From positions 3,906,001 through 3,970,000 of the forward strand of contig OZ025249.1 in the NCBI GenBank assembly GCA_964019135.1: a stretch of DNA of 64,000 nt. The letters are read 5' to 3'. Origin of the DNA: Arenicola marina. Its lineage: Eukaryota; Annelida; Polychaeta; Arenicolidae. Numbering within the stretch: position 1 is the first letter of the stretch; each line of letters opens with the position of its first letter. Position numbers and translations under genes: made by a program. Shown here piece by piece: positions 1,505 through 64,000 of this stretch. The notes beneath the pieces were generated by a model that saw nothing but the letters and a program-made list of their open reading frames with translations, was not told the origin of the DNA and did not search any database.

Positions 1505-1850
1505 CATGGCCTTCAAACCACCACCCCACCACCACTCTACACCTACCCTACCACCACCTGCAACCACCATACTACTCTCATCCCGATTGCTGCCGCCCTC
1601 TCCTGACCCTTTCACCCATTTCCCTTCCCAACTCCCCAACCCCCAACACCCAACCCCCAACACCCGAATACCAGCCGATGTCCACTTCACCTACCCCCCC
1701 AGCTCTCTTCCCCCCATTTCCAGCCTTCAGCCTCGGCTCTCCTCTTCCTCCAGCCTCCCCTCCACCCTCCCTCCCTCCCTCCCACCCTCCCCCTCCACCT
1801 TCCCTCTCTCCCACCAACCCCCCCCACTCGGTGTCCATGGCCCCGGCGTT
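1505..1850. repeat. C/A-rich low-complexity stretch (copy A)
   Basis: The + strand is almost free of G: runs of CCACC, CCCAACC and CCTCCCTCC follow one another. Open frames on both strands here come from the skewed composition. The same stretch recurs at 13805-14160 with small indels. I see no gene in it. Confidence 0.8.
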
Positions 1851-2707
1851 GCGTCCCCGCGTTCATCACGGCCGCTGACAATGAAGGTCGTTGGGGTGTC
1901 GTCAGACGGGATGACTGGTGGCTGCACCGGGTCCCGGGCGGTCTGTGGGGTGTGCCGTTTGGGGGGTGGGGGGGGGGGGGAGTGCCGGGGTGAGAGAGGG
2001 ACACCACGGCGACTGTTGCTGGCACTGAAGGACATCACACTGTTACAGGCAAAGACCAAGAGAGGGACACAGTGGGGGCGTGAGTGGGCGGTATGGAACG
2101 GGAGGGCGGGGCGGTCACTTTGGGGTCTATTGAAGGATAAAGATAACGGTGTCGAGAGTCGGTCCTGCGATCTGTCACCGCTAAGTGAAAGTCAACACCT
2201 TGATCAACGAGCGAGTCCTGACCATTAGTCTGAACAGCGGGTGTTATTGAAAACTTTGGCAAGGATGACATTATACAGGGTGTCCCAAAGGTGTTTATAC
2301 AGCTCCGTCCGAGTTGGTGCAGCAGTCCCGCACCTTGTGGACTACTGGGAGGGCTTCCACCACACCGATACACACACATCCGCCACATCCACACAGCTGT
2401 CCTCGTCGAGACTATTACTCGACGATATTTATTCCAATTTGCCATATATCTATATTTCATTGTGAAAATGAATGGGTTACAAGACCCGTACTATTATACC
2501 TGATATTTATACCAAAACGAAACATCGATCCTTTATTAAAATCATTTATTACTGCTTGAAAACAATGGTTTATTTTCATCCAATCCTTTTTTGACACAAT
2601 TATTATGAAAACAAAGCTCCACTCACAATCATTACATATATGCTGTTGCATTCCATTATTTACTTATTGTACTTTTGTACTAACATAACGCTCGATCTAT
2701 TGTCACT

Positions 2708-4430
2708 GGCTACACTAGTGCCGTGCCTCTGATGAGTAGGGTGTAACATTACAACTATGGCTACACTAGTGCCGTGCCTCTGAGAGGTAGGGTGTAACAT
2801 TACAACCATGGCTACACTAGTGCCGTGCTTCCGAGAGGTAGGGTGTAACAATAAAACCATGGCTACACTAGTGGCGTGCCTCTGAGGATTAGGGTGTAAC
2901 ATTACAACCATGGCTACACTAGTGCCGTGCCTCTGAGGAGTAGGGTGTAACATTACAACCATGGCTACACTAGTGCCGTGCCTCTGAGGAGTAGGGTGTA
3001 ACAGTACAACCATGGCTACACTAGTGCCGTGTCTCTGAGGAGTAGGGTGTAACATTACAACCATGGCTACACTAGTGCCGTGCCTCTGAGGAGTAGGGTG
3101 TAACATTACAACCATGGCTACACTAGTGCCGTGCCTCTGAGGAGTAGGGTGTAACATTACAACTATGGCTACACTAGTTCCGTGCCTCTGAGAGGTAGGG
3201 TGTAACATTACAACCATGGCTACACTAGTGCCGTGCCTCTGAGGAGTAGGGTTTAACATTACAACCATGGCTACACTAGTGCCGTGCCTCTGAGGAGTAG
3301 GGTGTAACATTACAACTATGGCTACACTAGTGCCGTGCCTCTGAGGAGTAGGGTGTAACAGTACAACCATGGCTACACTAGTGCCGTGTCTCTGAGGAGT
3401 AGGGTGTAACATTACAACCATGGCTACACTAGTGCCGTGCCTCTGAGGAGTAGGGTGTAACATTACAACCATGGCTACACTAGTGCCGTGCCTCTGAGGA
3501 GTAGGGTGTAACATTACAACTATGGCTACACTAGTGCCGTGCCTCTGAGAGGTAGGGTGTAACATTACAACCATGGCTACACTAGTGCCGTGCCTCTGAG
3601 GAGTAGGGTTTAACATTACAACCATGGCTACACTAGTGCCGTGCTTCTGAGAGGTAGGGTGTAACATTACAACCATGGCTACACTAGTGCCGTGCTTCTG
3701 AGAGGTAGGGTGTAACATTACAACCATGGCTATACTAGTGCCGTGCCTCTGAGGAGTAGGGTGTAACAGTACAACCATGGCTACACTAGTGCCGTGCCTC
3801 TGAGGAGTAGGGTGTAACATTACAACCATGGCTACACTAGTGCCGTGCTTCTGAGGAGTAGGGTGTAACATTACAACCATGGCTACACTAGTACCGTGCC
3901 TCTGAGGAGTAGGGTGTAACATTACAACCATGGCTACACCAGTGACGTGCCTCTGAGGAGTAGGGTGTAACATTACAACCATGGCTACACTAGTACCGTG
4001 CCTCTGAGGAGTAGGGTGTAACATTACAACCATGGCTACACCAGTGACGTGCCTCTGAGGAGTAGGGTGTAACATTACAACCATGGCTACACTAGTACCG
4101 TGCCTCTGAGGAGTAGGGTGTAACATTACAACCATGGCTACATCAGTGACGTGCCTCTGAGGGGTAGGGTGTAACATTAAAACCATGGCTACACCAGTGA
4201 CGTGCCTCTGAGGGGTAGGGTGTAACATTACAACCATGGCTACACCAGTGACGTGCCTCTGAGGAGTAGGGTGTAACATTACAACCATGGCTACACTAGT
4301 ACCGTGCCTCTGAGGAGTAGGGTGTAACATTACAACCATGGCTACACTAGTACCGTGCCTCTGAGGAGTAGGGTGTAACATTACAACCATGGCTACACCA
4401 GTGACGTGCCTCTGAGAGGTAGGGTGTAGC
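2708..4430. repeat. 51-bp minisatellite, about 34 units (copy A)
   Basis: The unit contains the palindrome CACTAGTG and the string GTAGGGTGTAACATTACAAC. The period is 51 bp (17 codons), so the minus strand stays open for 590 codons with a 17-residue repeat of the type LHPTPQRHGTSVAMVV. Units toward the right end carry variants (ACCAGTGACGTGCC), showing partial homogenisation in blocks. There is no signal peptide or other domain and unit differences are not biased to silent sites, so I do not call it a gene. Confidence 0.95.
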
Positions 4431-5612
4431 ATCTTGGAGGGTCAAGGGCGTCAGATATGACCTCGACCACGTGGACACACGTTATGGCGACACGGGTCTG
4501 TGACACGTCGTGATGAATAGCGGCCGTGGCACAGGGTCTGCAGCACCTCCCCCCCCCTCCCCACGTTAGCCAGAGACCACCATCCCCGCCCCCCGCCCCC
4601 GGCCCCCCGCCTTGCACCTCACAGTGCCGTTCCTTGGCAACGAAATCTGCGCACTAGCGCCACGTGGCAGAAGATTCCCGCAGCGTCTCCCTCGAAGTCG
4701 CCGATGAAGATAAGTTGACCAAGAGAGACAAGTTGCACGATATGTTTTGTTTGGTGGCAAGTATTGCGGCAGGAGTTGGTTGATTAATTGCCGTTTTGTG
4801 TGGGGTTCGTCCTATTGGTAAAGACTGAAGCCTTGGGGCAGTACGACACGCGACACGCCTAACTCTCGTTACGTTCATGGAACGCCTCACTTAATTTCAG
4901 TCTGATGGTGTTTCTTTAACTCGGTATATTAAATTAAATACACGATTTTGTGAATGACATGTTTTAAAGGGGTTTGTGTTCTAGTTGTGAGACTGGATTA
5001 AGACCGGCACACACTGAACTAACATATTGACAGACATACCAGAGATGCGCGTACTAATTCTCATACACAATAAAAGATAACGCAGAGTAAACTGGACAGG
5101 TCCATCTGCTTCCGGTTCCGTTCAAGTGTTTCCGGTGTAGCACAATGTTTGCCGGGTCTTCATCAATGTTGTACTTCCCATTTGCGCTTTACAAGGGTTC
5201 TCAGTGGTAATGTGAGTTTGATACTAATGTTTATTGTTCAAATGTATGCATTTCAAGTAAACGTAAACATTTATAAAATAGACAATAGATTGTCACAAAC
5301 GATACAGGTTTCATCCATTCGCGTGCAAAAAATTCTGCCAATGAACGAATTGACAGTGACCTTAACCTTAACCTTGTCCACACATTCATAGAGACCCACA
5401 CGGATAGCCAACGGCTTGTTTGTATTGCACACTTGGCCATGGCTAGCCGCAGCATTGTTATATTAGCACCCGACCGCTGTATCTCTGTCGGCGTGTCTGA
5501 CCTTCATCTGGCCGTGTCATTGTCTCGGTGAACTGACCCCGGCGATAAGCTCGTCCTGCCCGGCGCCCCTTAATTGTGCAGCAACCCCGATCAAAGCGCC
5601 TCTAGCATCATC
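4431..5612. other. Unique sequence between arrays (copy A)
   Basis: About 1.2 kb of mixed-composition sequence, repeated in copy B at about 16302-17485. It includes a C-rich run near 4550-4615. Only short open frames are present, none recognisable. I see no gene. Confidence 0.6.
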
Positions 5613-6350
5613 CTGGCCAAGGACCCCTCCCTGTCCGCCATCAGTCTGGCCAAGGACCTCTCCCTGTCCGCCATCAGTGTGGCCATGGACCCCTCCCTGT
5701 CCGCCATCAGTCTGGCCAAGGACCCCTCCCTGTCCGCCATCAGTCTGGCCACGGACCCCTCCCTGTCCCCCATCAGCCTGGCCAAGGACCTCTCCCTGTC
5801 CACCATCAGTGTGGCCATGGACCCCTCCCTGTCCGCCATCAGCCTGGCCAAGAACCCCTCCCTGTCCGCCATCAGCCTGTCCAAGGACCCCTCCCTGTCC
5901 GCCATCAGTCTGGCCAAGGACCTCTCCCTGTCCGCCATCAGTGTGGCCAAGGACCCCTCCCTGTCCGCCATGAGCCTAGCCAAGGACCCCTGCCTGTCCG
6001 CCATCAGTTTGGCCAAGGACCCCTGCCTGTCCGCCATCAGCCTGGCCAAGGACCTCTCCCTGTCCGCCATCAGTGTGGCCAAGGACCCCTCCCTGTCCGC
6101 CATCAGCCTGGCCAAGAACCCCTCCCTGTCCGCCATCAGCCTGGCCCAGGACCTCTCCTTGTCCGCCATCAGTCTGGCCAAGGACCCCTCCCTGTCCGCC
6201 ATCAGTCTGGCCAAGGACCCCTCCCTGTCCGCCATCAGCCTGGCCAAGGACCCCTCCCTCTCCGCCAATAGCCTGGCCAAGGACCCCCCCCCCCGTGGCC
6301 ACGGACCCCTCCCTGTCCGCCATCAGCCTGGCCAAGGAGCCCCCCCCCTG
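5613..6350. repeat. 33-bp minisatellite, about 22 units (copy A)
   Basis: The unit carries GGCCAAGGACCCCTCCCTGT and GCCATCAG. The period is 33 bp (11 codons), so both strands are open: the plus strand reads an 11-residue repeat of type LAKDPSLSAIS, the minus strand LARLMADREGS. The same family occurs at 17486-17740 and, inverted, at 23190-24150. Open frames on both strands argue for repeat structure rather than coding. Confidence 0.95.
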
Positions 6351-6971
6351 AGCAAGGACCCCCTCCCCTTCCGCCGCGGCCTGGCGATAGGGACGGGAAC
6401 TCACGAGCCGTTGACGCCAGACCCAGCCACGCCCGATAGCCATAACCCGCGCTATAACGCACAGAACGAGGCTTCCCAATGAGCCCCACCGACCAATTTC
6501 AGCCTGTAATTTCGACCACCTGCCCTGAAGTGTCCCCTGGCCTTGGGAACGCGTCGCTGGAAAACGGCATGACACATCCGGGCTTCCGTAAAATAAGGCG
6601 CCATTGACAACGGGAAGAGTGGGTGTTTACATCCCCAGTAACTTACAGAGGTATATTGTTGTATGCGTCCCGGACACTGTAACGACAACACGGACACATC
6701 ATCCTGATACAACACAACGCTGGCAACTGCGAATAGACTTTGATGGAACATTTACCACTGCACCAGTTAACGTCCACAAGACATTATTCTAATTGCGAAA
6801 TGGAAGCTTTCACCCCGTGGATTAACCTTCGCCGCTCTTATTGGATCCACTCGTAATTTAACCTCAACGCCCCGACAGGGACGCCCCCCCCCCCCTCCCC
6901 CCGCCTCACCCAACGCCATCCCAGCCACCTCCGCCGGATCGATGTTCACTGTAATGCCGGGATGTGGGTTT

Positions 6972-13804: not shown

Positions 13805-14180
13805 CACTCGTCCATGGCCTTCAAACCACCACCCCACCACCACTCTACTCCTACCCTACCACCACCTGCAACCACCATACTACTCTCATCCCGATTGCTG
13901 CCGCCCTCTCCTGACCCTTTCACCCATTTCCCTTCCCAACTCCCCAACCCCCAACCCCCAACCCCCAACACCCAACCCCCAACACCCGAATACCAGCCGA
14001 TGTCCACTTCACCTACCCCCCCAGCTCTCTTCCCCCCATTTCCAGCCTTCAGCCTCGGCTCTCCTCTTCCTCCACCCTCCCCTCCACAATCCCTCCCTCC
14101 CTCCCACCCTCCCCCTCCACCTTCCCTCTCTCCCACCAACCCCCCCCCCTCGGTGTTCATGGCCCCGGCGTCGCGTCCCC
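13805..14180. repeat. C/A-rich low-complexity stretch (copy B)
   Basis: Counterpart of 1505-1850, with two extra CCCAACC-type repeats near 13945-13985. I see no gene. Confidence 0.8.
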
Positions 14181-15037
14181 GCGTTCATCACGGCCGCTGA
14201 CAATGAAGGTCGTTGGGGTGTCGTCAGACGGGATGACTGGTGGCTGCACCGGGTCCCGGGCGGTCTGTGGGGTGTGCCGTGTGGGGGGTGGGGGGGGGAG
14301 TGCCGGGGTGAGAGAGGGACACCACGGCGACTGTTGCTGGCACTGAAGGACATCACACTGTTACATGCAAAGACCAAGAGAGGGACACAGTGGGGGCGTG
14401 AGTGGGCGGTATGGAACGGGAGGGCGGGGCGGTCACTTTGGGGTCTATTGAAGGATAAAGATAACGGTGTCGAGAGTCGGTCCTGCGATCTGTCACCGCT
14501 AAGTGAAAGTCAACACCTTGATCAACGAGCGAGTCCTGACCATTAATCTGAACAGCGGGTGTTATTGAAAACTTTGGCAAGGATGACATTATACAGGGTG
14601 TCCCAAAGGTGTTTATACAGCTCCGTCCGAGTTGGTGCAGCAGTCCCGCACCTTGTGGACTACTGGGAGGGCTTCCACCACACCGATACACACACCTTCG
14701 CCACATCCACACAGCTGTCCTCGTCGAGAATATTACTCGACGATATTTATTCCAATTTGCCATATATCTATATTTCATTGTGAAAATGAATGGGTTACAA
14801 GACCCGTACTATTATACCTGATATTTATACCAAAACGAAACATCGATCCTTTATTAAAATCATTTATTACTGCTTGAAAACAATGGTTTATTTTCATCCA
14901 ATCCTTTTTTGACACAATTATTATGAAAACAAAGCTCCACTCACAATCATTACATATATGCTGTTGCATTCCATTATTTACTTATTGTACTTTTGTACTA
15001 ACATAACGCTCGATCTATTGTCACTGGCATGACCACT

Positions 15038-16301
15038 ATGGCTACACTAGTGCCGTGCCTCTGATGAGTAGGGTGTAACATTACAACTATGGCTACACTA
15101 GTGCCGTGCCTCTGAGAGGTAGGGTGTAACATTACAACCATGGCTACACTAGTGCCGTGCTTCCGAGAGGTAGGGTGTAACATTAAAACCATGGCTACAC
15201 TAGTGGCGTGCCTCTGAGGATTAGGGTGTAACATTACAACCATGGCTACAATACTGCCGTGCCTCTGAGGAGTAGGGTGTAACATTACAACCATGGCTAC
15301 ACTAGTGCCGTGCCTCTGAGGAGTAGGGTGTAACAGTACAACCATGGCTACACTAGTGCCGTGTCTCTGAGGAGTAGGGTGTAACATTACAACCATGGCT
15401 ACACTAGTGCCGTGCCTCTGAGGAGTAGGGTGTAACATTACAACCATGGCTACACTAGTGCCGTGCCTCTGAGGAGTAGGGTGTAACATTACAACTATGG
15501 CTACACTAGTGCCGTGCCTCTGAGAGGTAGGGTGTAACATTACAACCATGGCTACACTAGTGCCGTGTCTCTGAGAGGTAGGGTGTAACATTACAACCAT
15601 GGCTACACTAGTGCCGTGCTTCTGAGAGGTAGGGTGTAACATTACAACCATGGCTACACTAGTGCCGTGCCTCTGAGGAGTAGGGTGTAACAGTACAACC
15701 ATGGCTACACTAGTGCCGTGTCTCTGAGGAGTAGGGTGTAACATTACAACCATGGCTACACTAGTGCCGTGCCTCTGAGGAGTAGGGTGTAACATTACAA
15801 CCATGGCTACACTAGTGCCGTGTCTCTGAGGAGTAGGGTGTAACAGTACAACCATGGCTACACTAGTGCCGTGTCTCTGAGGTGTAGGGTTTAACATTAC
15901 AACCATGGCTACACTAGTGCCGTGCCTCTGAGGAGTAGGGTGTAAAATTACAACCATGGCTACACTAGTGCCGTGCTTCTGAGAGGTAGGGTGTAACATT
16001 ACAACCATGGCTATACTAGTGCCGTGCCTCTGAGGAGTAGGGTGTAAAATTACAACCATGGCTACACTAGTGCCGTGCCTCTGAGGAGTAGGGTGTAGCA
16101 TTACAACCATGGCTACACTAGTGCCGTGCCTCTGAGCTGTAGGGTTTAACATTACAACCATGGCTACACTAGGGCCGTGCCTCTGAGGAGTAGGGTGTAA
16201 AATTACAACCATGGCTACACTAGTGCCGTGCCTCTGAGATGTAGGGTTTAACATTACAACCATGGCTACACCAGTGACGTGCCTCTGAGGAGTAGGGTGT
16301 A
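15038..16301. repeat. 51-bp minisatellite, about 25 units (copy B)
   Basis: Same unit as 2708-4430 (palindrome CACTAGTG, 51-bp period), about nine units shorter. The minus strand is open for about 435 codons with the same 17-residue repeat. Unit order differs from copy A in the middle, showing array turnover since duplication. Confidence 0.95.
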
Positions 16302-17485
16302 GCATCTTGGAGGGTCAAGGGCGTCAGATATGACCTCGACCACGTGGACACACGTTATGGCGACACGGGTCTGTGACACGTCGTGATGAATAGCGGCCGT
16401 GGCACAGGGTCTGCAGCACCTCCCCCCCCCCTCCCCACGTTAGCCAGAGACCACCATCCCCGCCCCCCGCCCCCGGCCCCCCGCCTTGCACCTCACAGTG
16501 CCGTTCCTTGGCAACGAAATCTACGCACTAGCGCCACGTGGCAGAAGATTCCCGCAGCGTCTCCCTCGAAGTCGCCGATGAAGATAAGTTGACCAAGAGA
16601 GACAAGTTGCACGATATGTTTTGTTTGGTGGCAAGTAATGCGGCAGGAGTTGGTTGATTAATTGCCGTTCTGTGTGGGGTTCGTCCTATTGGTAAAGACT
16701 GAAGCCTTGGGGCAGTACGACACGCGACACGCCTAACTCTCGTTACGTTCATGGAACGCCTCACTTAATTTCAGTCTGATGGTGTTTCTTTAACTCGGTA
16801 TATTAAATTAAATACACGATTTTGTGGATGACATGTTTTAAAGGGGTTTGTGTTCTAGTTGTGAGACTGGATTAAGACCGGCACACACTGGACTAACATA
16901 TTGACAGACATACCAGAGATGCGCGTACTAATTCTCATACACAATAAAAGATAACGCAGTGTAAACTAGACAGGTCCATCTGCTTCCGGTTCCGTTCAAG
17001 TGTTCCGGTGTAGCACAATGTTTGCCGGGTCTTCATCAATGTTGTACTTCCCATTTGCGCTTTACAAGGGTTCTCAGTGGTAATGTGAGTTTGATACTAA
17101 TGTTTATTGTTCAAATATATGCATTTCAAGTAAACGTAAACATTTATAACATAGACAATAGATTGTCACAAACGATACAGGTTTCATCCATTCGCGTGCA
17201 AACAATTCTGCCAATGAACGAATTGACAGTGACCTTAACCTTAACCTTGTCCACACATTCATAGAGACCCACACGGATAGCCAACGGCTTGTTTGTATTG
17301 CACACTTGGCCATGGCTAGCCGCAGCATTGTCATATTAGCACCCGACCGCTGTATATCTGTCGGCGTGTCTGACCTTCATCTGGCTGTGTCATTGTCTCG
17401 GTGAACTGACCCCGGCGATAAGCTCGTCCTACCCGGCGCCCCTTAACTGTGCAGCAACCCCGATCAAAGCGCCTCTAGCATCATC
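16302..17485. other. Unique sequence between arrays (copy B)
   Basis: Counterpart of 4431-5612 with scattered single-base differences. No recognisable gene. Confidence 0.6.
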
Positions 17486-17745
17486 CTGGCCAAGGACCCC
17501 TCCCTGTCCGCCATCAGTCTGGCCAAGGACCTCTCCCTGTCCGCCATCAGTGTGGCCAAGGACCCCTCCCTGTCCGCCATCAACCTGGCCAAGGACCCCT
17601 CCCTGTCCGCCATGAGCCTGGCCAAGGACCCCTCCCTCTCCGCCATGAGCCTGGCCAAGGACCCCTGCCTGTCCGCCATCAGCTTGGCCAAGGACCCCTG
17701 CCTGTCCGCCATCAGCCTGGCCAAGGAGCCCCTCCCTCCTGACCA
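17486..17745. repeat. 33-bp minisatellite, about 8 units (copy B)
   Basis: Same unit as 5613-6350 but about 14 units shorter, the largest length difference between copies A and B. It shows how quickly this array changes length. Confidence 0.93.
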
Positions 17746-18369
17746 AGGACCCCCTCCCCTTCCGCCGCGGCCTGGCGATAGGGACGGGAACTCACGAGCC
17801 GTTGACGCCAGACCCAGCCACGTCCGATAGCCATAACCCGCGCTATAACGCCCAGAACGAGGCTTCCCAATGAGCCCCACCGACCAATTTCAGCCTGTAA
17901 TTTCGACCACCTGCCCTGAAGTGTCCCCTGGCCTTGGGAACACGTCGCTGGAAAACGGCATGACACATCCGGGCTTCCGTAAAATAAGGCGCCATTGACA
18001 ACGGGAAGAGTGGGTGTTTACATCCCCAGTAACTTACAGAGGTATATTGTTGTATGCGTCCCGGACACTGCAACGACAACACGGACACATCATCCTGATA
18101 CAACACAACGCTGGCAACTGCGAATAGACTTTGATGGAACATTTACCACTGCACCAGTTAACGTCCACAAGACATTATTCTAATTGCGAAATGGAAGCTT
18201 TCACCCCGTGGATTAACCTTCGCCGCTCTTATTGGATCCACTCGTAATTTAACCTCAACGCCCCGACAGGGACGCCCCCCCCCCCCTCCCCTCCCCCCGC
18301 CTCACCCAACGCCATCCCAGCCACCTCCGCCGGATCGATGTTCACTGTAATGCCCGGATGTGGGTTTCG

Positions 18370-19134: not shown

Positions 19135-20945
19135 TACCTCCTTGGTCACGCCTCCTTCTCAGTGAAGCTTACCCAGTCAATTAAGGATGAAATCGTCGAG
19201 GCTCTCACTCTGGTAGTGAACCAAACACTAACTACGGGTGTATTTCCCACTAAATTAAAAAAAGCGAAGGTCGTACCGGTTTTTAAAAAGTGAGACAAAG
19301 ATGAATTCAATAATTATGGTCCTATATCCATTCTACATGCTCTTTCAAAGGTACTAGAAAGAATGATGGCAAATTAAATGCATAGATTTTTTTAATGAAA
19401 ACAACGTGTTTGTAAGTAGTCAATACGGTTTTTGCCCCAAACATTCAACTGATACGGCTGTATTGGAAATAGTGGATCGTACCCTAATGGCGATGGACAA
19501 AAATGAATCTCCCATTAACATTTATCTTGATCTTTCCAAGGCCTTCGATACAATAGATCATGGCATATTGTCAAAAAAACTACATCACTATGGTATACAA
19601 GAAGTGGCACTAGACTTGTTCAAAAATTATCTTTCGGATCGTCAACAATATGTGGATATCGATGGCACTGCCTCAAACCTTTGTAACATAACCACTGGGA
19701 TTCCGCAAGGGTCTATTCTTGGCCCTCTTCTCTTTATCCTTTATATCAACGACCTACCATCTGCTAGTGATTTCTTTAAATATATAATTTATGCTGATGA
19801 TACTACACTTTTGTTCTCTATAAGCCTCCTCACAACGGGCTTGTCGTCTGCCAATATGAACTTAGTATGCCGCAAAATCAGCCACTGGTTAGACGCCAAC
19901 AGACTTGTCCTTAATGTGCAAAAGTCTAAATTTATGGTCTTTCACACTCCTCAAAGAAAAATCACACCCCCTATTCTTGTGATTAATAATCAACAAATGT
20001 GTAGACAATTTTAACTTACTGTATATCACCTTGAACAAACCCATGAAGTGGCATACTCAGATTCAGAAAATTGCAACACGAGTCACAAGGGCGATTGGGG
20101 TCATAAACCGGTTAAAATACACGCTTCCTCAGCATATACTGTTAACGTTGTACAACACGCTTATCTTACCGCACATCACATATGGGATCATGGTCTGGGG
20201 ATATGACAATGCTCGCCTCTTTAAACTTCAGAAAAAGGCAATGAGAGTCATTACACTTAGTAAATACAACGCACATTCGGAACCCCTATTTAAGCAATTA
20301 AGATGCCTTAAACTCCCTGACATTCACAAAATTCAAGTACTAAAATTTTACTACACCGAACACTCTACCGAAATATTTTCGCAGTATACCGCTTCTCCAA
20401 TAAAGGGGTGTTCATCACTATGATAACAGTCATCAGTTCCATGTCTTTAGCGGCAACATTCCAGCATTCATTCGCGCTTCAATGTATCCAACACAGTATG
20501 GTTTATTTGATTAATAATGAGCTTTTAACCACTCTCGAGAAAATGTTATCACGTAGTCGTCTTGACTTCTCTAACTACCTAAAATCCTTGATATTGGAGA
20601 CATATACATATGTATGCACCGTGGCTAATTGTTACATTTGTCTTAACTGAGGCATATATGAAACATTGACATACCTCCTATATCACTTGTTTAGCATATA
20701 AATGTGGGTTGTGTTATTTTGTTTCATGTATTTAGTTTTGAGTTGGAGTTTATGTTAAGCTGTGAACTGCAAGTCGTTATCTTGGCTCGAGCAATTACGT
20801 CATACTCATTTCTGACCCTCAGGTGGTCCAGGCGACAGCGACCTCTGGTCTTAGCCTGGATCTCCTAACCCATACCATTATAGCTTCCAGTCGTTTATCT
20901 GTATATTCTGTCATGTAATAGTTAAATAAATGAAATGAATCCTGA
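19135..20945 (+). mobile_element. Degenerate, 5'-truncated LINE (Jockey/CR1-type reverse transcriptase)
   Basis: This is the 3' part of a non-LTR retrotransposon. Visible reverse transcriptase motifs in order are LDLSKAFDTIDH (about 19530-19565), IPQGSILGPLLFILY, and the catalytic YADD at 19790-19801, followed by thumb and C-terminal sequence (TLILPHITYGIMVWGY) in another frame. The 5' end, including any endonuclease domain, is missing; homology starts around IKDEIVEALT (19180). It is dead: stops at about 19291 and 19374, a frameshift in the T-run near 19386, another break near 20014-20031, and further frame changes near 20405. The 3' end has AATAAA followed by GAAATGAATCCTGAATCC. The clade is inferred from motif style. 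Confidence 0.88.
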
Positions 20946-22905: not shown

Positions 22906-24190
22906 ACCCACTCTTACCGTTGTCAATGGCGCCCTACCTTACGGAAGCCCGGATGTGTCATGCCGTTTTCCTGCGACGCGTTCCCAAGGTCAGGGGACAC
23001 TTCCGGGCAGGTGGTGGAAATTAGAGGCGGAAATTGATCGGCGGGGATCGTTGTGGAGCCTCGTTCTGGGGGTTATTGCGCGGGTTATGGTGGTCGGACG
23101 TGGTGGGGTCTGACGTCAACGGCTCGGGGGTCCCCGGCCCAACCGCCCGGCCGCAGCGAGGGGGGGAGGGGGCTTGGTCAAGGGGGGGGGGGTCCTTGAC
23201 CAGGCTGATGGCAGACAGGCAGGGGTCCTTGGCCAGGCTGATGGCGGACAGGCAGGAGTCCTTGGCCAGGCTAATGGTGGACAGGCCGGGTCCTTGGCCA
23301 GGCTGATGGCGGACAGGGAGGGGTCCTTGGCCAGGCTGATGGCGGACAGGGAGGGGTCCTTGGCCAGGCTGATGGCGGACAGGGAGGGGTCCTTGGCCAG
23401 GCTGATGGCGGACAGGCAGGGGTCCTTGGCCAGGCTGATGGTGGACAGGCCGGGGTCCTTGGCCAGGCTGATGGGGGACAGGGAGGGGTCCTTGGCCAGG
23501 CTGATGGGGGACAGGGAGGGGTCCTTGGCCAGGCTGCTGGTATGGTCTCTGGCGGACAGGGAGGGGTCCTTGGCCAGACTGATGGCGGACAGGCAGGGGT
23601 CCTTGGCCAGGCTGATGGGGGACAGGGAGGGGTCCTTGGCCAGACTGATGGCGGACAGGGAGGGGTCCTTGGCCAGACTGATGGCGGACAGGGAGGGGTC
23701 CTTGGCCAGGCTGATGGGGGACAGGGAGGGGTCCTTGGCCAGGCTGATGGTGGACAGGCCGGGGTCCTTGGCCAAGCTGATGGGGGACAGGGAGGGGTCC
23801 TTGGCCAGGCTGATGGCGGACAGGAAGGGGTCCTTGGCCAGGCTGCTGGTATGGTCTCTGGCGGACAGGGAGGGGTCCTTGGCCAGACTGATGGCGGACT
23901 GGGAGGGATCCTTGGCCAGGCTGATGGTGGACAGGGAGGAGTCCTTCGCCAGGCTGATGGCGGACAGGGAGGGGTCCTTGGCCAGGTTGATGGCGGGCAG
24001 GAAGGGGTCCTTGGCCCGGCTGATGGCGGACAGGCAGAGGTCCTTGGCCAGGCTAATGGCGGACAGGGAGGGGTCCTTGGCCAGGCTGATGGCGGTGGGA
24101 GGGGTCTAGGCCAGGCTGATGGCATGGCCTCTGGCGGACAGGGTGGGCCCTTTGGTCAGGGGTGTCGGGCGGTAAAGGGCGCCGGATATG
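22906..24190 (-). repeat. Inverted, diverged third copy of the 33-bp array and its flank (copy C)
   Basis: Read on the minus strand, 22906-23160 aligns with the unique flank right of the 33-bp array in copies A and B (6405-6620, 17790-18010), including GACACATCCGGGCTTCCGTA. Identity is roughly 85-90% by eye. The 33-bp array itself runs from about 23190 to 24150 in inverted orientation (about 29 units), with two 24-bp interruptions containing GCTGCTGGTATGGTCTCTGG. This copy is clearly older than the A/B split. Confidence 0.9.
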
Positions 24191-54228: not shown

Positions 54229-54428
54229 NNNNNNNNNNNNNNNNNNNNNNNNNNNNNNNNNNNNNNNNNNNNNNNNNNNNNNNNNNNNNNNNNNNNNNNN
54301 NNNNNNNNNNNNNNNNNNNNNNNNNNNNNNNNNNNNNNNNNNNNNNNNNNNNNNNNNNNNNNNNNNNNNNNNNNNNNNNNNNNNNNNNNNNNNNNNNNNN
54401 NNNNNNNNNNNNNNNNNNNNNNNNNNNN
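54229..54428. other. Assembly gap (200 N)
   Basis: A run of exactly 200 N. The round length suggests a gap of arbitrary declared size, so true spacing across it is unknown. Open frames crossing it are meaningless. Confidence 0.99.
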
Positions 54429-59024: not shown

Positions 59025-60902
59025 ACACTGAAGGTTTGACCGATGGAAGCGCCGCCGTGACAAGAAAGATGTAATGGACACGGGTCTCTCCACCCCACCC
59101 TCCACCCAAGGTCACGCACTTCAAGGCCATGGTAGCGGGGAAAACAGTCAAGGCCATGACGGCGAGGAGGGTCAAGGTCACTCGTCGTTGGAGCGTTCAG
59201 ACGGCGGCCACGCCTTGACAACGCGGGACAGCGACTGTTCCTCCGGCGTTGGCATGGTGATGTGTTCCCGGCTGAGTGGGGCGTCGCAGCGGCCCCCTCG
59301 CAGGATGTCGGAGTCGCGTCTCCACGCGACGGCGGCTCGCGGGGGTCGCCAGGCTCGGCTGTTCAGCATCAGCTCGGTGTTCGAGGAGGATCGCTGGGTG
59401 ATTCAGGCGCAGATCGAGCACCGGCGGCGAGAGAAATACAAGCAGATGTGCCGGATGTTGGCGCTCATGATGCTTCCGGTGGTGGCGCTGCTGGCGGTGA
59501 CGGCCGTGCTGCTGGCCGGCGCCATCTTGAAGCAGCAGGGCGCCTCCCGCGCCATCACGCACGTCGACTGCTTCTTCTCCCTCAGCGCCGTGGTGGACAC
59601 CATGCAGCATGAGAAGGTCCTCACCGCCTCGGCCCTCATCCTGGCCCGGGCAGGGGTCGGGCGGGCCGCCGCCGGGGGCAGGAGGCGCAGGGCCGGGGCC
59701 CGCACCCTCGGGCCCGGGGCGGAGGCGGGGGCGGAGGCGGGGACGGGGGCGGGGGCGCCGCCGGGTGGGGCCTGGGTGGTGGACGTCCTGGCCGGGGACC
59801 CGCACCCCATCAACCTTACGGTGGCGCGGGGCGGCGTGGACGCGGCCATCCTGACCTCGGTGTGCTGGCCCTCGGCCCTCGCCGGCCAAGCCTTCCAGGG
59901 CGACAACTGGACCGCCGGCTCCAACACCACGCGCACACATCTCCACACTCGCCAGACGGCGCTGCGGCTGCTGGAGGACTTCCGGGCGACCGTGGAATCC
60001 TCGCCAGGGGGCGGGGCGACGCTGGAGGAGGCGGTGACGTTCTTCCAGGACATCGTGGGTGAGTTGTTGAACTGGACCACGGTGACGGTGATGCTGCCCG
60101 GTGAGTCTGTCGACATCTGGACCCCGTGTGTGGCCAAGAGCGTGCTCCTCCGGGCCAGCGCCATCTACGGGGCGCAGCGCATTCTCGGCGAGGCGGCGCT
60201 GACAGACTGCCGCCTGCCCGGCCCCCAGAGGGCGCTGCTCGAGCGCCTGGACGGCCAATCAGAGGCCTACCTGGCTGAGAGCTTCCTCTACCAGCCCAGA
60301 TCCCGCGAGACCTTCCAGTCGTTACTCCACAAAGACCCGTCCGTCAGCGAGACTATAACCCGAATCAAAACCATGATCAAACAGGAAGATTTCAACGGCG
60401 TATGCGCGGCGATGACGTCACACGCCCGTCGGGAGATGCGGGAGGCGTGGCTGGTGGCGATGGACGCGTACACCCGGGTGATCGGGGAGGTGCGCACTTC
60501 GCTGGCGGTGGAGCTGCGGCGCGAGCTAGGCGCCCTGACCCGCGACACCAACCGGCAGATCGCCATCTACTCCGTTGTCGCCGGCCTCGTCACCCTCATC
60601 TGCGTCCTCGCCAGCCTCTGGTACGCCTCCTGCATCCAGACCCTGACCCACACGCTCAGCATGTACGCCCTCCGCTCCTCCGAGAAGTCCAAGGAGCTGG
60701 CGCAGGAGAAGCGGAAGACGGATAGCCTGCTGTACGAGATGATGCCACCCTCCGTGGCCGACCAGCTGAAGGAAAACCACGAGGTCCAGGCCGAGTACTT
60801 CGAGGCAGTCACCATCTGCTTCGCCGATATCGTGGGCTTCACCACGCTGTCCTCCATGAGCACCCCATTCCAGGTGGTCGACCTACTGAATTCACTCTAC
60901 AG
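59025..60902 (+). other. Exon of the NIT-type guanylate cyclase gene (5'UTR part plus coding)
   Basis: The 5' edge is set by a pyrimidine-rich acceptor (TTATCTTCTTGCAG, AG at 59023-59024). The 3' edge is set by the donor CTCTACAG then GTGAGG (intron starts 60903). A TGA at 59029-59031 is in frame with the coding start, so the exon begins in 5'UTR if this acceptor is used. A five-codon upstream frame (59043-59060) precedes the main start. Earlier non-coding exons and the promoter are not identified. Confidence 0.7.
59043..59060 (+). promoter_or_regulatory. Upstream open reading frame in the cyclase leader
   Basis: ATG GAA GCG CCG CCG TGA: a five-codon frame ending 13 bases before the main ATG. 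Its -3 base is C, a weak context, while the main ATG has G at -3 and G at +4. It could lower translation of the receptor. The effect is inference. Confidence 0.35.
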
Positions 60903-63900
60903 GTGAGGCTGGTGACTATTCCAGGTGGTCGACCTACTGAATTCACTCTACAGGTGAGACTGGTGACTATTCCAGGTGGTCGACCTACTGAATTCACTCT
61001 ACAGGTGAGACTGGTGACTATTCCAGGTGGTCGACCTACTGAATTCACTCTACAGGTGAGACTGGTGACTATTCCAGGTGGTCGACCTGCTTAACTCATT
61101 CTACAGGTGAGACTGGTGACCATTCCAGGTGGTCGACCTGCTTAATTCACTCTACAGGTGAGACTGGTGACCATTCCAGAGGGTCAACCTGCTTAATTCA
61201 CTCTACAGGTGAGACTGGTGACCATTCCAGGTGGTCGACCTGCTTAATTCACTCTACAGGTGAGAATGGTGACCATTCCAGGTGGTCGACCTGCTTAACT
61301 CATTCTACAGGTGAGACTGGTGACCATTCCAGAGGGTCGACCTGCTTAATTCACTTTACATGTGAGACTGGTGACCATTCCAGGTGGTCGACCTGCTTAA
61401 TTCACTTTACATGTGAGACTGGTGACCATTCCAGGTGGTCGACCTGCTTAATTCACTCTACAGGTGAGACTGGTGACTATTCCAGGTGGTCGACCTGCTT
61501 AATTCACTCTACAGGTGAGACTGGTGACCATTCCAGGTGGTCGACCTGCTTAATTCACTCTACAGGTGAGACTGGTGACCATTCCAGAGGGTCAACCTGC
61601 CTAATTCACTTTACATGTGAGACTGGTGACCATTCCAGGTGGTCGATCTGCCTAATTCACTCTACAGGTGAGACTGGTGACCATTCCAGAGGGTCAACCT
61701 GTTTACGTGCGGATTACCTTGTCTACCTCGTGTAATTACTAGACATTGGCCTCAATATATGAAAGCGGTTTTCCTGTTGCATTAACAGTGTCATTCGTAA
61801 TACCTACTTGATTCTGGATGATTAGATATTTTTGTTTTTGATGACTAGGTCATTGCAACATTTAATGACTTGGCAAGTGCTATGCTAAATGTGTCTTTCT
61901 TTACTCTTATCTTTGCCTTATAACTAATTAATTTGCCTCATGACCGTCTGGCTTTGTCAGATGAGTAGAAAAAACCGTTGTCGAATATATACTTTTGTCT
62001 ATGACGTTGGCTAGGTGGCCTAGACATTGGCTATGTCTAACTGCACATTATGTCTAGTATCTAGTGCCTAGACGTTGTCTATGTCTAACTGCACATTATA
62101 TCTAGTATTTTAGTGCCTAGACGTTGTCTATTTCTAACTGCACATTATGTCTAGTGTGTAGTACCTAGACGTTGTCTGTGTCTAACTGCATATTACGTCT
62201 AGTATCTAGGGCCTATACGTTGTCTTTGGCTAACTGCAGACTATTGCTAGCGTCTAGTGCCTAGACGTTGTCTTTGTCTAACTGCACACTATTTCTAGCA
62301 TATCGTGCCTAGACGCTGTCGATGTCTAACTGAACATTACGTCTAGTGTCTAGGGCCTATACGTTGTCTATGTCTAACTGCAGACTATTTCTAACGTCTC
62401 GTGCCTAGTCGTTGTCTTTGTCTAACTGCACATTACGTCTAGTGTCTAGGGCCTATATGTTGTCTATGTCTAACTGCACATTATGTCTAGTGTCTAATGC
62501 CTAGACGTTGTCTGTGTCTAACTGCACATTACGTCTAGTATCTAGAGCCTATACGTTGTCTTTTGCTAACTGCAGACTATAGCTTGCGTCTAGTGCCTAG
62601 ACGTTGTCTTTGTCTAACTGCACACTATTTCTAGCATCTCGTGCCTAAACGCTGTCGATGTCTAACTGAATATTACGTCGAGTGTCTAGGGCCTATACGT
62701 TGTCTATGCCTAACTGCAGACTATTTCTAGCGTCTCGTGCCTAGACGTTGTCTTTGTCTAACTGCACATTACGTCTAGTGTCTAGGGCCTATACGTTGTC
62801 TATGTCTAACTGCAGACTATTTCTAGCGTCTCGTGCCTAGACGTTGTCTTTGTCTAATTGCACATTACGTCTAGTATCTAGGGCCTATACGTTGTCTTTG
62901 GCTAACTGCAGACTATTGCTAGCGTCTAGTGCCTAGACGTTGTCTTTGTCTAACTGCACACTATTTCTAGCATCTCGTGCCTAAACGCTGTCGATGTCTA
63001 ACTGAATATTACGTCGAGTGTCTAGGGCCTATACGTTGTCTATGCCTAACTGCAGACTATTTCTAGCGTCTCGTGCCTAGACGTTGTCTTTGTCTAACTG
63101 CACATTACGTCTAGTGTCTAGGGCCTATACGTTGTCTATGTCTAACTGCAGACTATTTCTAGCGTCTCGTGCCTAGACGTTGTCTTTGTCTAATTGCGCA
63201 TTACGTCTAGTGTCTAGGGCCTATACGTTGTCTTTGGCTAACTGCAGACTATTGCTAGCGTCTAGTGCCTAGACGTTGTCTTTGTCTAACTGCACACTAT
63301 TTCTAACATCTTGTGCCTAGGCGCTGTCGATGTCTAACTGCACGTTACGTCTAGTGTCTAAGGCCTATACGTTGTCTATGTCTAACTGCAGACTATTGCT
63401 AGAATCTCGTGCCTAGACGTTGTCTTTGTCAAACTGCACATTATGTCTAGTGCCTAATGCCTAGACGTTGTCGATGTCTAACTGCACATTACGTCTAGTG
63501 TCTAGGGCCTATACGTTGTCTATGTCTAACTGCAGACTATTGCTAGCGTCTAGTGTCTAGACGTTGTCTTTGTCAAACTGCACATAATGTCTAGTGTCTA
63601 ATGCCTAGACGTTGTCGATGTCTAACTGCATATTACGTCTAGTGTCTAGGGCCTAGACGTTGTCTATGTCTAAACGGCCTTTGTCTCCATAATCGTCCCG
63701 GCCTTTCCTAATGGATCGATACTATACATTTGTCTATGTCTATCTGCACATCATGTCTAGTGTCTAGTGCCTGGACGCTGTATTTTATGTCCGCCGCTCC
63801 CCCCCCCCCTACAGCCTGTTCGACGCTGCCCTCGACAAGTATGACGTGTACAAGGTGGAGACCATTGGCGACGCCTACATGGTCGTCAGCGGGCTGCCCG

Positions 63901-64000
63901 AGAAGAACGAGAACCACGTGCTCGAGATCGCAGATATGTCCCTGGACATCCGGGAGGCCGTCAGTCAGTTCAAGATCCCGCACCTCCCGGATCACAAGCT
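59074..64000 (+). CDS. Membrane guanylate cyclase with NIT-like extracellular domain (5' part; exons 59074-60902 and 63815-64000, continues beyond window)
   Basis: The product should make cGMP from GTP at the cell membrane. Exon 1 encodes 609 residues plus two bases: a Ser/Gly/His-rich cytosolic N-terminus (1-125), TM1 (about 128-152), an extracellular region (153-495) with NIT-like helices ([16 protein letters not shown], about 175-190), TM2 (about 497-519), a signalling helix ([33 protein letters not shown]-type, about 538-565) and the start of the cyclase domain ([15 protein letters not shown], metal-binding Asp at 585). Exon 2 continues [20 protein letters not shown]; the Glu of [10 protein letters not shown] is the purine-selecting residue of guanylate rather than adenylate cyclases. 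Four N-glycosylation sequons (247, 278, 284, 333) all lie between the TMs, supporting topology. A Gly/Ala/Arg-rich insert (192-236) is unusual. Start: first in-frame ATG after an upstream stop. In the annelid Platynereis, NIT-domain cyclases act in nitric oxide signalling; that role here is inference. Confidence 0.9.
60867..61705 (+). repeat. 51-bp minisatellite made of exon end plus 5' splice site, about 16 units
   Basis: The first unit begins inside the cyclase exon (60867) and includes the last 36 exon bases (encoding [11 protein letters not shown]) and the donor. The same sequence, ATTCCAGGTGGTCGACCT to CTCTACAGGTGAGACTGGTG, then repeats every 51 bp through the intron start. The four copies next to the exon match it almost perfectly. 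Later copies read CTGCTTAATTCACT, which still encodes Leu-Leu-Asn-Ser. Three or four have TTTACATGTGAG, losing the G before the GT. Confidence 0.95.
60903..63814 (+). other. Phase-2 intron of the cyclase gene, largely minisatellite
   Basis: A GT-AG intron of about 2.9 kb: donor CAG then GTGAGG, acceptor of C-run plus TACAG. It splits a Ser codon (AG|C) inside the cyclase catalytic domain. About 0.8 kb is the exon-derived 51-bp array, about 1.8 kb is a 48-bp array, and about 0.3 kb between (61706-62004) is unique AT-rich sequence. Confidence 0.85.
62005..63775. repeat. 48-bp minisatellite with 7-unit (336-bp) higher-order repeat, about 37 units
   Basis: The unit contains CTAGACGTTGTCTATGTCTA then ACTGCACATTACGTCTAGTG. 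A landmark variant (CTAAACGCTGTCGATGTC) at 62645 and 62981 shows a 336-bp, seven-monomer higher-order repeat. It lies wholly in the cyclase intron, ending about 40 bp before the acceptor. Confidence 0.94.
63815..64000 (+). other. Second recognised cyclase exon (partial, runs off the window)
   Basis: It starts after TACAG at 63814 and encodes the heart of the catalytic domain: [18 protein letters not shown], then [17 protein letters not shown] and [15 protein letters not shown], open to the last base. The window ends in mid-domain, before the usual HSG motif. Confidence 0.92.

Follow-up and report, generated by a model that had tools for sequence, protein, structure and literature searches.

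A minisatellite of tandem splice donors in a guanylate cyclase gene of Arenicola marina: one of many exon-seeded arrays, most likely tolerated by splicing

In a stretch of 64,000 nucleotides of the genome of the annelid Arenicola marina (contig OZ025249.1, C2:3906001-3970000 in our numbering; hereafter the window), a coding exon of an NIT-domain receptor guanylate cyclase gene runs at its 3' end into a minisatellite that repeats both the exon end and the adjoining 5' splice site. The question raised by this locus is what a ladder of near-identical donors means for the gene. An earlier reading of the letters alone (the sequence-only reading) had proposed that array length could tune receptor output as a splicing rheostat. 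We consider it more probable, with odds of roughly seven in ten, that the array is a 'mirage', the name given to boundary-spanning minisatellites of amphioxus (PMC3087553): an exon-seeded tandem expansion within a pre-existing intron, tolerated by splicing and most likely leaving the mRNA as it was. The array is one of many in a minisatellite-rich genome.

Tandem Repeats Finder (TRF) reported a 51-bp array at 60865-61705, with 16.5 copies, a 93% match and a score of 1402. When split starting at 60867, it yields 16 complete units followed by a partial 17th, with which it ends (61683-61705; this and all features of the gene lie on the forward strand). The array begins 36 nt inside the exon, and each unit comprises 36 nt of exon and 15 nt of intron, that is, an exon end joined to an intron start, as in a mirage. 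The final 36 coding bases (60867-60902, including the AG of a split codon) lie in unit 1, followed by the authentic 5' splice site, GTGAGG after CAG (60903-60908), so that the founder unit is indeed the one named by the sequence-only reading. The 15 intronic donor copies it had estimated were likewise found, 51 bp apart (60918-61682). These decoy donors lie after 60953, 61004, 61055, 61106, 61157, 61208, 61259, 61310, 61361, 61412, 61463, 61514, 61565, 61616 and 61667. All 15 retain the GT; 12 read CAG|GTGAGA and three (61361, 61412 and 61616) read CAT|GTGAGA, and splice signals are thus kept in many but not all units, as also described for mirages. Across the donor, CTCTACAGGTGAGA is exact in ten intronic copies, TTCTACAGGTGAGA in two and TTTACATGTGAGA in three.

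Units 2-4 are mutually identical and one base off unit 1, and units 5-16 differ from unit 1 by three to ten bases. The exon's present codons CTA CTG occur only in units 1-4; units 5-16 have CTG CTT or CTG CCT. Further within the unit, ATTCCAG is present in 17 of 17 units, continuing with GTGG in 13 of the 16 full units and with AGGG in units 7, 10 and 15 and in the partial 17th. A gradient outward from the exon, such as re-seeding from the exon unit would leave, was suggestive only: the rank correlation with distance to the exon was 0.49 (p 0.065) in the window array, and none of the ten arrays with enough units reached p 0.05 (locus L030 gave 0.32, p 0.054). The 14-mer CTCTACAGGTGAGA occurs 18 times in the 867 Mb searched, ten of them inside the window array. 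Elsewhere in this one assembly it formed no second array, and its eight other copies (five on C3 and one each on C9, C10 and C11), considered as possible relatives, were rejected, as the contexts read were unrelated sequence.

The decoys are strong. In a donor position weight matrix (PWM) derived from 72 local donors, 12 of the 15 score higher than the real donor (12.02, at the 92nd percentile, against 10.71, at the 75th); an earlier matrix from textbook frequencies had placed the real donor just above them, an order that the local matrix reverses. Between the array and the next exon, within 61711-63799, no GT reached a local donor score of at least 7. When a later donor was put in place of the first in the gene model (units 2, 3, 6 and 16 were tried), AGG TGA followed directly after ..NSLYR, as had been claimed, and the protein ended at residue 610. 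This combination of strong decoys and an immediate stop, which would be premature since three more model coding exons lie downstream, is what favours a rheostat, in which a regulated share of the pre-mRNA would acquire the ..NSLYR-stop form and pass to nonsense-mediated decay, with array length setting the receptor level. The stop is a generic outcome and no special device, because any AG|GTGA read in this phase gives AGG TGA.

The claim that the truncation falls before the active site holds in part. The second metal-binding Asp motif, ETIGDAY, lies downstream of the cut and is lost; the first, FADIVGF, lies upstream of it. The exon concerned (59025-60902, an open frame whose first ATG is at 59074 and whose 5' limit, gcag|ACACTG, is the presumed one) matches the Pfam domains NIT, HNOBA and Guanylate_cyc in that order, the last over positions 1-39 of 183, as expected of an NIT-domain guanylate cyclase. 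The next coding exon (63815-64000, running beyond the window to about 64026) continues the catalytic domain, as do the exons beyond the window. A model of four exons gives 744 amino acids with no stops, and among PDB chains its catalytic part is closest to membrane guanylate cyclases. The gene thus appears intact, as far as the four modelled exons go, with a working boundary copy at the edge of the array. NIT-domain guanylate cyclases are also present in the annelid Platynereis (PMC10584369).

The first donor need not be the only one that gives a working protein. Read-through does bring stops, as the sequence-only reading held; the extra GT...AG segment left by a later donor could, in principle, be removed, because 12 of the 15 intronic units, up to CTACAG, form an ordinary-scoring acceptor. 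These 12 units score 5.9-7.4 as acceptors, which places them at the 35th to 58th percentile among 62 real acceptors; the acceptor of the intron itself scores 7.0 (a matrix that included exon bases was biased by the conserved exon start GTGGAG and was replaced). AG|GT with donor-like and acceptor-like context, the mark of a dual-specific site, was therefore found in 12 of the 15 intronic units, three lacking the AG. The other acceptor proposed, ATTCCAG, looks like a splice site since paralogs such as L021, L067, L072, L073, L076 and L079 have an intron at the matching Gln/Val junction, ATTCCAG coding for F-Q. The 29-nt pseudo-exons that it was said to permit are possible on paper; their acceptor lies at the 19th to 35th percentile of real acceptors.

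The intron itself (60903-63814; 2912 nt; phase 2, ..LY AG|C..) is probably older than the array, because the paralog L033 has an intron at the same position and in the same phase with no array at its donor. L029 matches the acceptor position (its donor lay outside the fetched sequence). These paralogs argue against the array having created the intron by tandem duplication of an exon piece containing AGGT (Rogers-type gain), as do an acceptor at 63814 outside any repeat unit and an intron length that is no multiple of 51. Each piece between AG|GT unit donors does have the form GT...AG, and such a model has been put forward both for mirages (PMC3087553) and for human gene repeats (PMC10809524, PMC2812944); here we regard it as highly improbable. 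Within the intron there is a second, unrelated minisatellite (62018-63673, with higher-order periods of 96, 144 and 336 bp). The gene also has a second donor-spanning array, at 1643-1823 of locus L047 (43 bp x 4.2), which begins in CACCAGCGAAG|GTAAGG. Also in this gene, at L047 1027-1036 (from window position 64027 on), the HTG codon is followed by the donor GTCCGG, which looks weak, and the next exon begins GTCCCTG.

Sixty guanylate-cyclase loci (L-numbers denote fetched loci), picked by domain match and not by their repeats, were fetched; 42 were used together with L047, 16 overlapping ones were dropped, and L015 and L016 were left out as near-copies of L014. Junctions were hand-curated from tblastn ends, leaving unplaced the donors of L010, L011, L018, the middle exons of L013 and L014 and the first exons of L030 and L032, as well as some acceptors. 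An array was taken to span a donor or an acceptor when it included at least 8 exon nt; L077, in which 1 exon nt is touched, was not counted. With the window donor excluded and the later donor of the same gene (L047) included, arrays spanned 11 of 87 donors, or 8 of 80 after recent duplicates (L014 and L024-L026; seven donors and seven acceptors) were dropped. In a second sample, judged by eye, three of 14 donors were spanned (L095, L097 and L102). Combined, 11 of 94 de-duplicated donors, about one in nine, carry such an array, donors within one gene not being fully independent. Twelve kinase exon ends were likewise judged by eye: behind one (L083) lies a diverged donor-like array, behind another (L081) an array begins near intron base 5, and the remaining ten showed none. 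The same structure at so many other exon ends speaks against a rheostat special to the window gene.

Arrays also span acceptors, five of the 74 placed and five of 67 after de-duplication, L029 and L033 sharing one array type; the second sample contained two introns with acceptor-type arrays (L093 and L105). By eye, L029 1957-2631, L033 2068-2443 and L105 256-401 carry one 77-bp acceptor-type array in three paralogs, its unit consisting of the intron end and the start of the GPCVAGVVG exon. Some donor arrays are larger than that of the window: L020 has 46 units of 33 bp and L030 has 37 of 42 bp, both reaching the end of the fetched piece, and L032 has 60 units of 20 bp. With a period of 10-100 and a TRF score of at least 100 as limits, minisatellites make up 53% of the non-N window, in 31 arrays after merging. 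Tandem arrays are easily misassembled; the units nevertheless differ among themselves, the locus lies inside a 61.5-Mb contig, and many separate genes have arrays like it, so that an assembly artefact is almost certainly not the explanation.

To see whether arrays favour junctions, we compared the positions of their left edges. Eleven edges fell in the last 60 exon nt (5,640 nt) and 24 in the first 400 intron nt (35,236 nt), a 2.9-fold excess per base at exon ends for both samples together (one-sided p 0.006; the intron length of the second sample was entered by hand). By sample, the excess was 2.5-fold (p 0.029) in the first and 4.3-fold (p 0.074) in the second; without L047, the first gave p 0.052. 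On the acceptor side it was 2.8-fold (p 0.060), or 2.25-fold (p 0.14) when L029 and L033 were counted once. At points sampled 20-90 nt within exons, array cover was 1-4%; it rose to 11% at the donor and to 15-20% from +40. The cover count and an earlier donor count used slightly different denominators (97 and 83) from the clean edge count. Array edges at least do not avoid junctions. One explanation for the excess may be a conserved exon copy through which the founder unit survives.

If decoys were used at a cost, selection should have left its mark on them. An unregulated leak, that is, low decoy use that depends on array length and yields waste transcripts with no regulatory role, would fit the strength of the decoys, the isoform ladders described for human UBC (PMC10809524) and the donor columns of L032 and L065, which are less conserved than the rest of the unit. 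The cost of a leak predicts loss of the GT, yet 297 of 308 decoy donors across 12 arrays retain it (109 of the 308 belong to the related L023-L026 arrays), the donor columns are as conserved as the rest or more so in ten of the 12, and the real donor stands upstream of every decoy. A leak is therefore rather unlikely. Compared with other non-CpG columns in nine de-duplicated arrays, the decoys showed no consistent difference: p was 0.028 for the sum of GT mismatches (fewer at GT), 0.16 for invariant columns and 0.55 for the nine donor columns. These conservation tests exclude the second-sample arrays L095, L097 and L102. There was no clear signal of purging or of preservation.

Decoys that are not clearly preserved also count against the rheostat, as do the differing read-through outcomes of the same structure in other genes. 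Read-through meets its stop within the first unit at the window gene, L023-L026, L030 and L065 and in a later one elsewhere: unit 2 (L075), unit 4 (L047), unit 6 (L071) and unit 7 (L032), with L020 running through 32 units before its stop. There is no common design in which a decoy means a stop. In L020 (from 1749; C4 at about 41.59 Mb, reverse strand), the 33-bp donor array is open in frame through 32 units, with GNGRRVIGIHS repeats, and may be read as coding or skipped. In addition, amphioxus reverse transcription PCR (RT-PCR) suggested that mirages do not interfere with regular splicing (PMC3087553), and the authors of the UBC study saw no tissue or feedback regulation (PMC10809524). Taken together, it is very unlikely that the array acts as a rheostat.

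The known systems closest to this array are the amphioxus mirages (Adh3, BflGb6/BflGb9, PGBD5 and TnC), which are likewise tandem copies of an exon boundary, on the donor or the acceptor side, with AG/GT signals in many units and in working genes (PMC3087553; PMC3902484, in which Adh and TnC are likewise treated). One amphioxus globin gene has two haplotypes, with six and three units (PMC3087553). The units number three or six of 150-160 bp in BflGb6 and measure 10-72 bp in Adh3, compared with 16 of 51 bp here. The host in our case is an annelid, and arrays, read here from genome sequence, sit at two donors of a single gene and at about one in nine across the family. The mitochondrial contig also fits an annelid: TGA is read as Trp, AGA stands where Ser is conserved in COX1, and the frames read in the order ND3, ND2, COX1, COX2, ATP8, COX3, which is that of annelids. 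By its structure the boundary array would belong with the mirages, and the number of such arrays and the phylum set it apart.

Three further systems share single features. In human UBC, tandem units each contain an AG|GT that can be used as a 5' or a 3' site, and these dual-specific sites were used both ways (PMC10809524). The UBC units are coding and in frame and their use was demonstrated, whereas those of the window are stop-bearing and intronic, have a separate acceptor and carry predicted sites; a unit cannot be retained here without harm to the frame, as it brings in a TGA. The ratchet points of recursive splicing in Drosophila also have an acceptor adjoining a donor (PMC8605326), but in long introns, compared with many copies, of exon-duplication origin, in a 2.9-kb intron. 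Variable internal tandem repeats of human duplicated genes are boundary minisatellites that alter gene structure and are reported to form new introns or longer exons (PMC2812944), whereas the intron here probably predates the array. Among the matches listed in our search of titles in the open-licence PMC literature, we found no report of boundary-spanning arrays in annelids; earthworm metallothionein has minisatellites in its first intron, and a boundary-spanning position is not stated in the accessible text (PMC12783039).

The mirage reading would work as follows. A tandem duplication of the exon end with its 5' splice site would seed a minisatellite in an existing intron, and further copies would grow into the intron; the exon copy remains intact because it is coding. 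Two routes to an unchanged mature mRNA are conceivable. With exon definition proceeding from the 5' side, the most upstream donor may be the one chosen. Alternatively, splicing may use a later donor and then excise the remaining GT...AG segment in a second step, which is conceivable because 12 of the 15 intronic units, and the exon end, have AG|GT after acceptor-like sequence.

Several points weigh against this account. The two-step route cannot be general, because the arrays of L023-L026 carry CCA|GT without the AG. The less conserved donor columns of two of the 12 arrays (L032 and L065) are what mild purging would give. Normal splicing is a conclusion that would be carried over from another phylum, and isoform ladders like those of UBC would here mean leakage into stop-containing mRNA. 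Finally, an acceptor-like exon end as a predictor of arrays was tried and given up: the first set gave a weak link (one-sided p 0.034; nine versus 72 donors), which weakened to p 0.080 once the window gene was dropped and was not replicated in the second sample, where AG|GT was found in one of three array-bearing exon ends.

A bolder version of the mirage reading, which we hold tentatively and think more probably wrong than right by some distance, is that exon-seeded arrays are dual-specific ladders that splicing can enter or leave at any rung with the same resulting mRNA. In that case they would be almost invisible to selection, which would explain both the frequency of about one array in nine donors and the 2.9-fold excess of edges at exon ends.

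With these arrays, mirages would move from lancelets into a second phylum. Studies of how one 5' splice site is chosen from several nearly identical ones usually rely on built minigenes of two or three sites. A single gene family in one genome here offers natural genes whose tandem donors number from four to about 60, with array-free paralogs that have the same kind of intron to serve as controls. Exclusive use of the first donor would be strong evidence for upstream-first choice, and multi-step removal would make the arrays a natural dual-specific splicing ladder.

Some minor observations concern other parts of the window and genome. Window positions 1516-6375 and 13935-17758 form a duplicated block, offset by about 11.9-12.3 kb, in which the arrays (51-bp and 33-bp units) follow one another in the same order, and the 33-bp unit reappears inverted at 23185-24123. 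A reverse-transcriptase domain (PF00078) at 19367-20011 is probably a transposon fragment, and 54229-54428 is a run of N, possibly a gap. Among the kinase matches, C3 carries at about 45-57 Mb (and also at 14-40 Mb) dozens of kinase-like open frames, about 280-310 amino acids long and with most of the domain in one exon, which look like a large lineage expansion, and C5:5402476-5437356 contains five kinase copies with identical scores at a spacing of about 8.5 kb. The small contigs C443, C465, C504, C330, C652, C609, C497, C684 and C232 have strong kinase matches in which the only in-frame stop codons are TAA and TAG, with no TGA, as expected of a ciliate-type code; they may come from a contaminant or symbiont.

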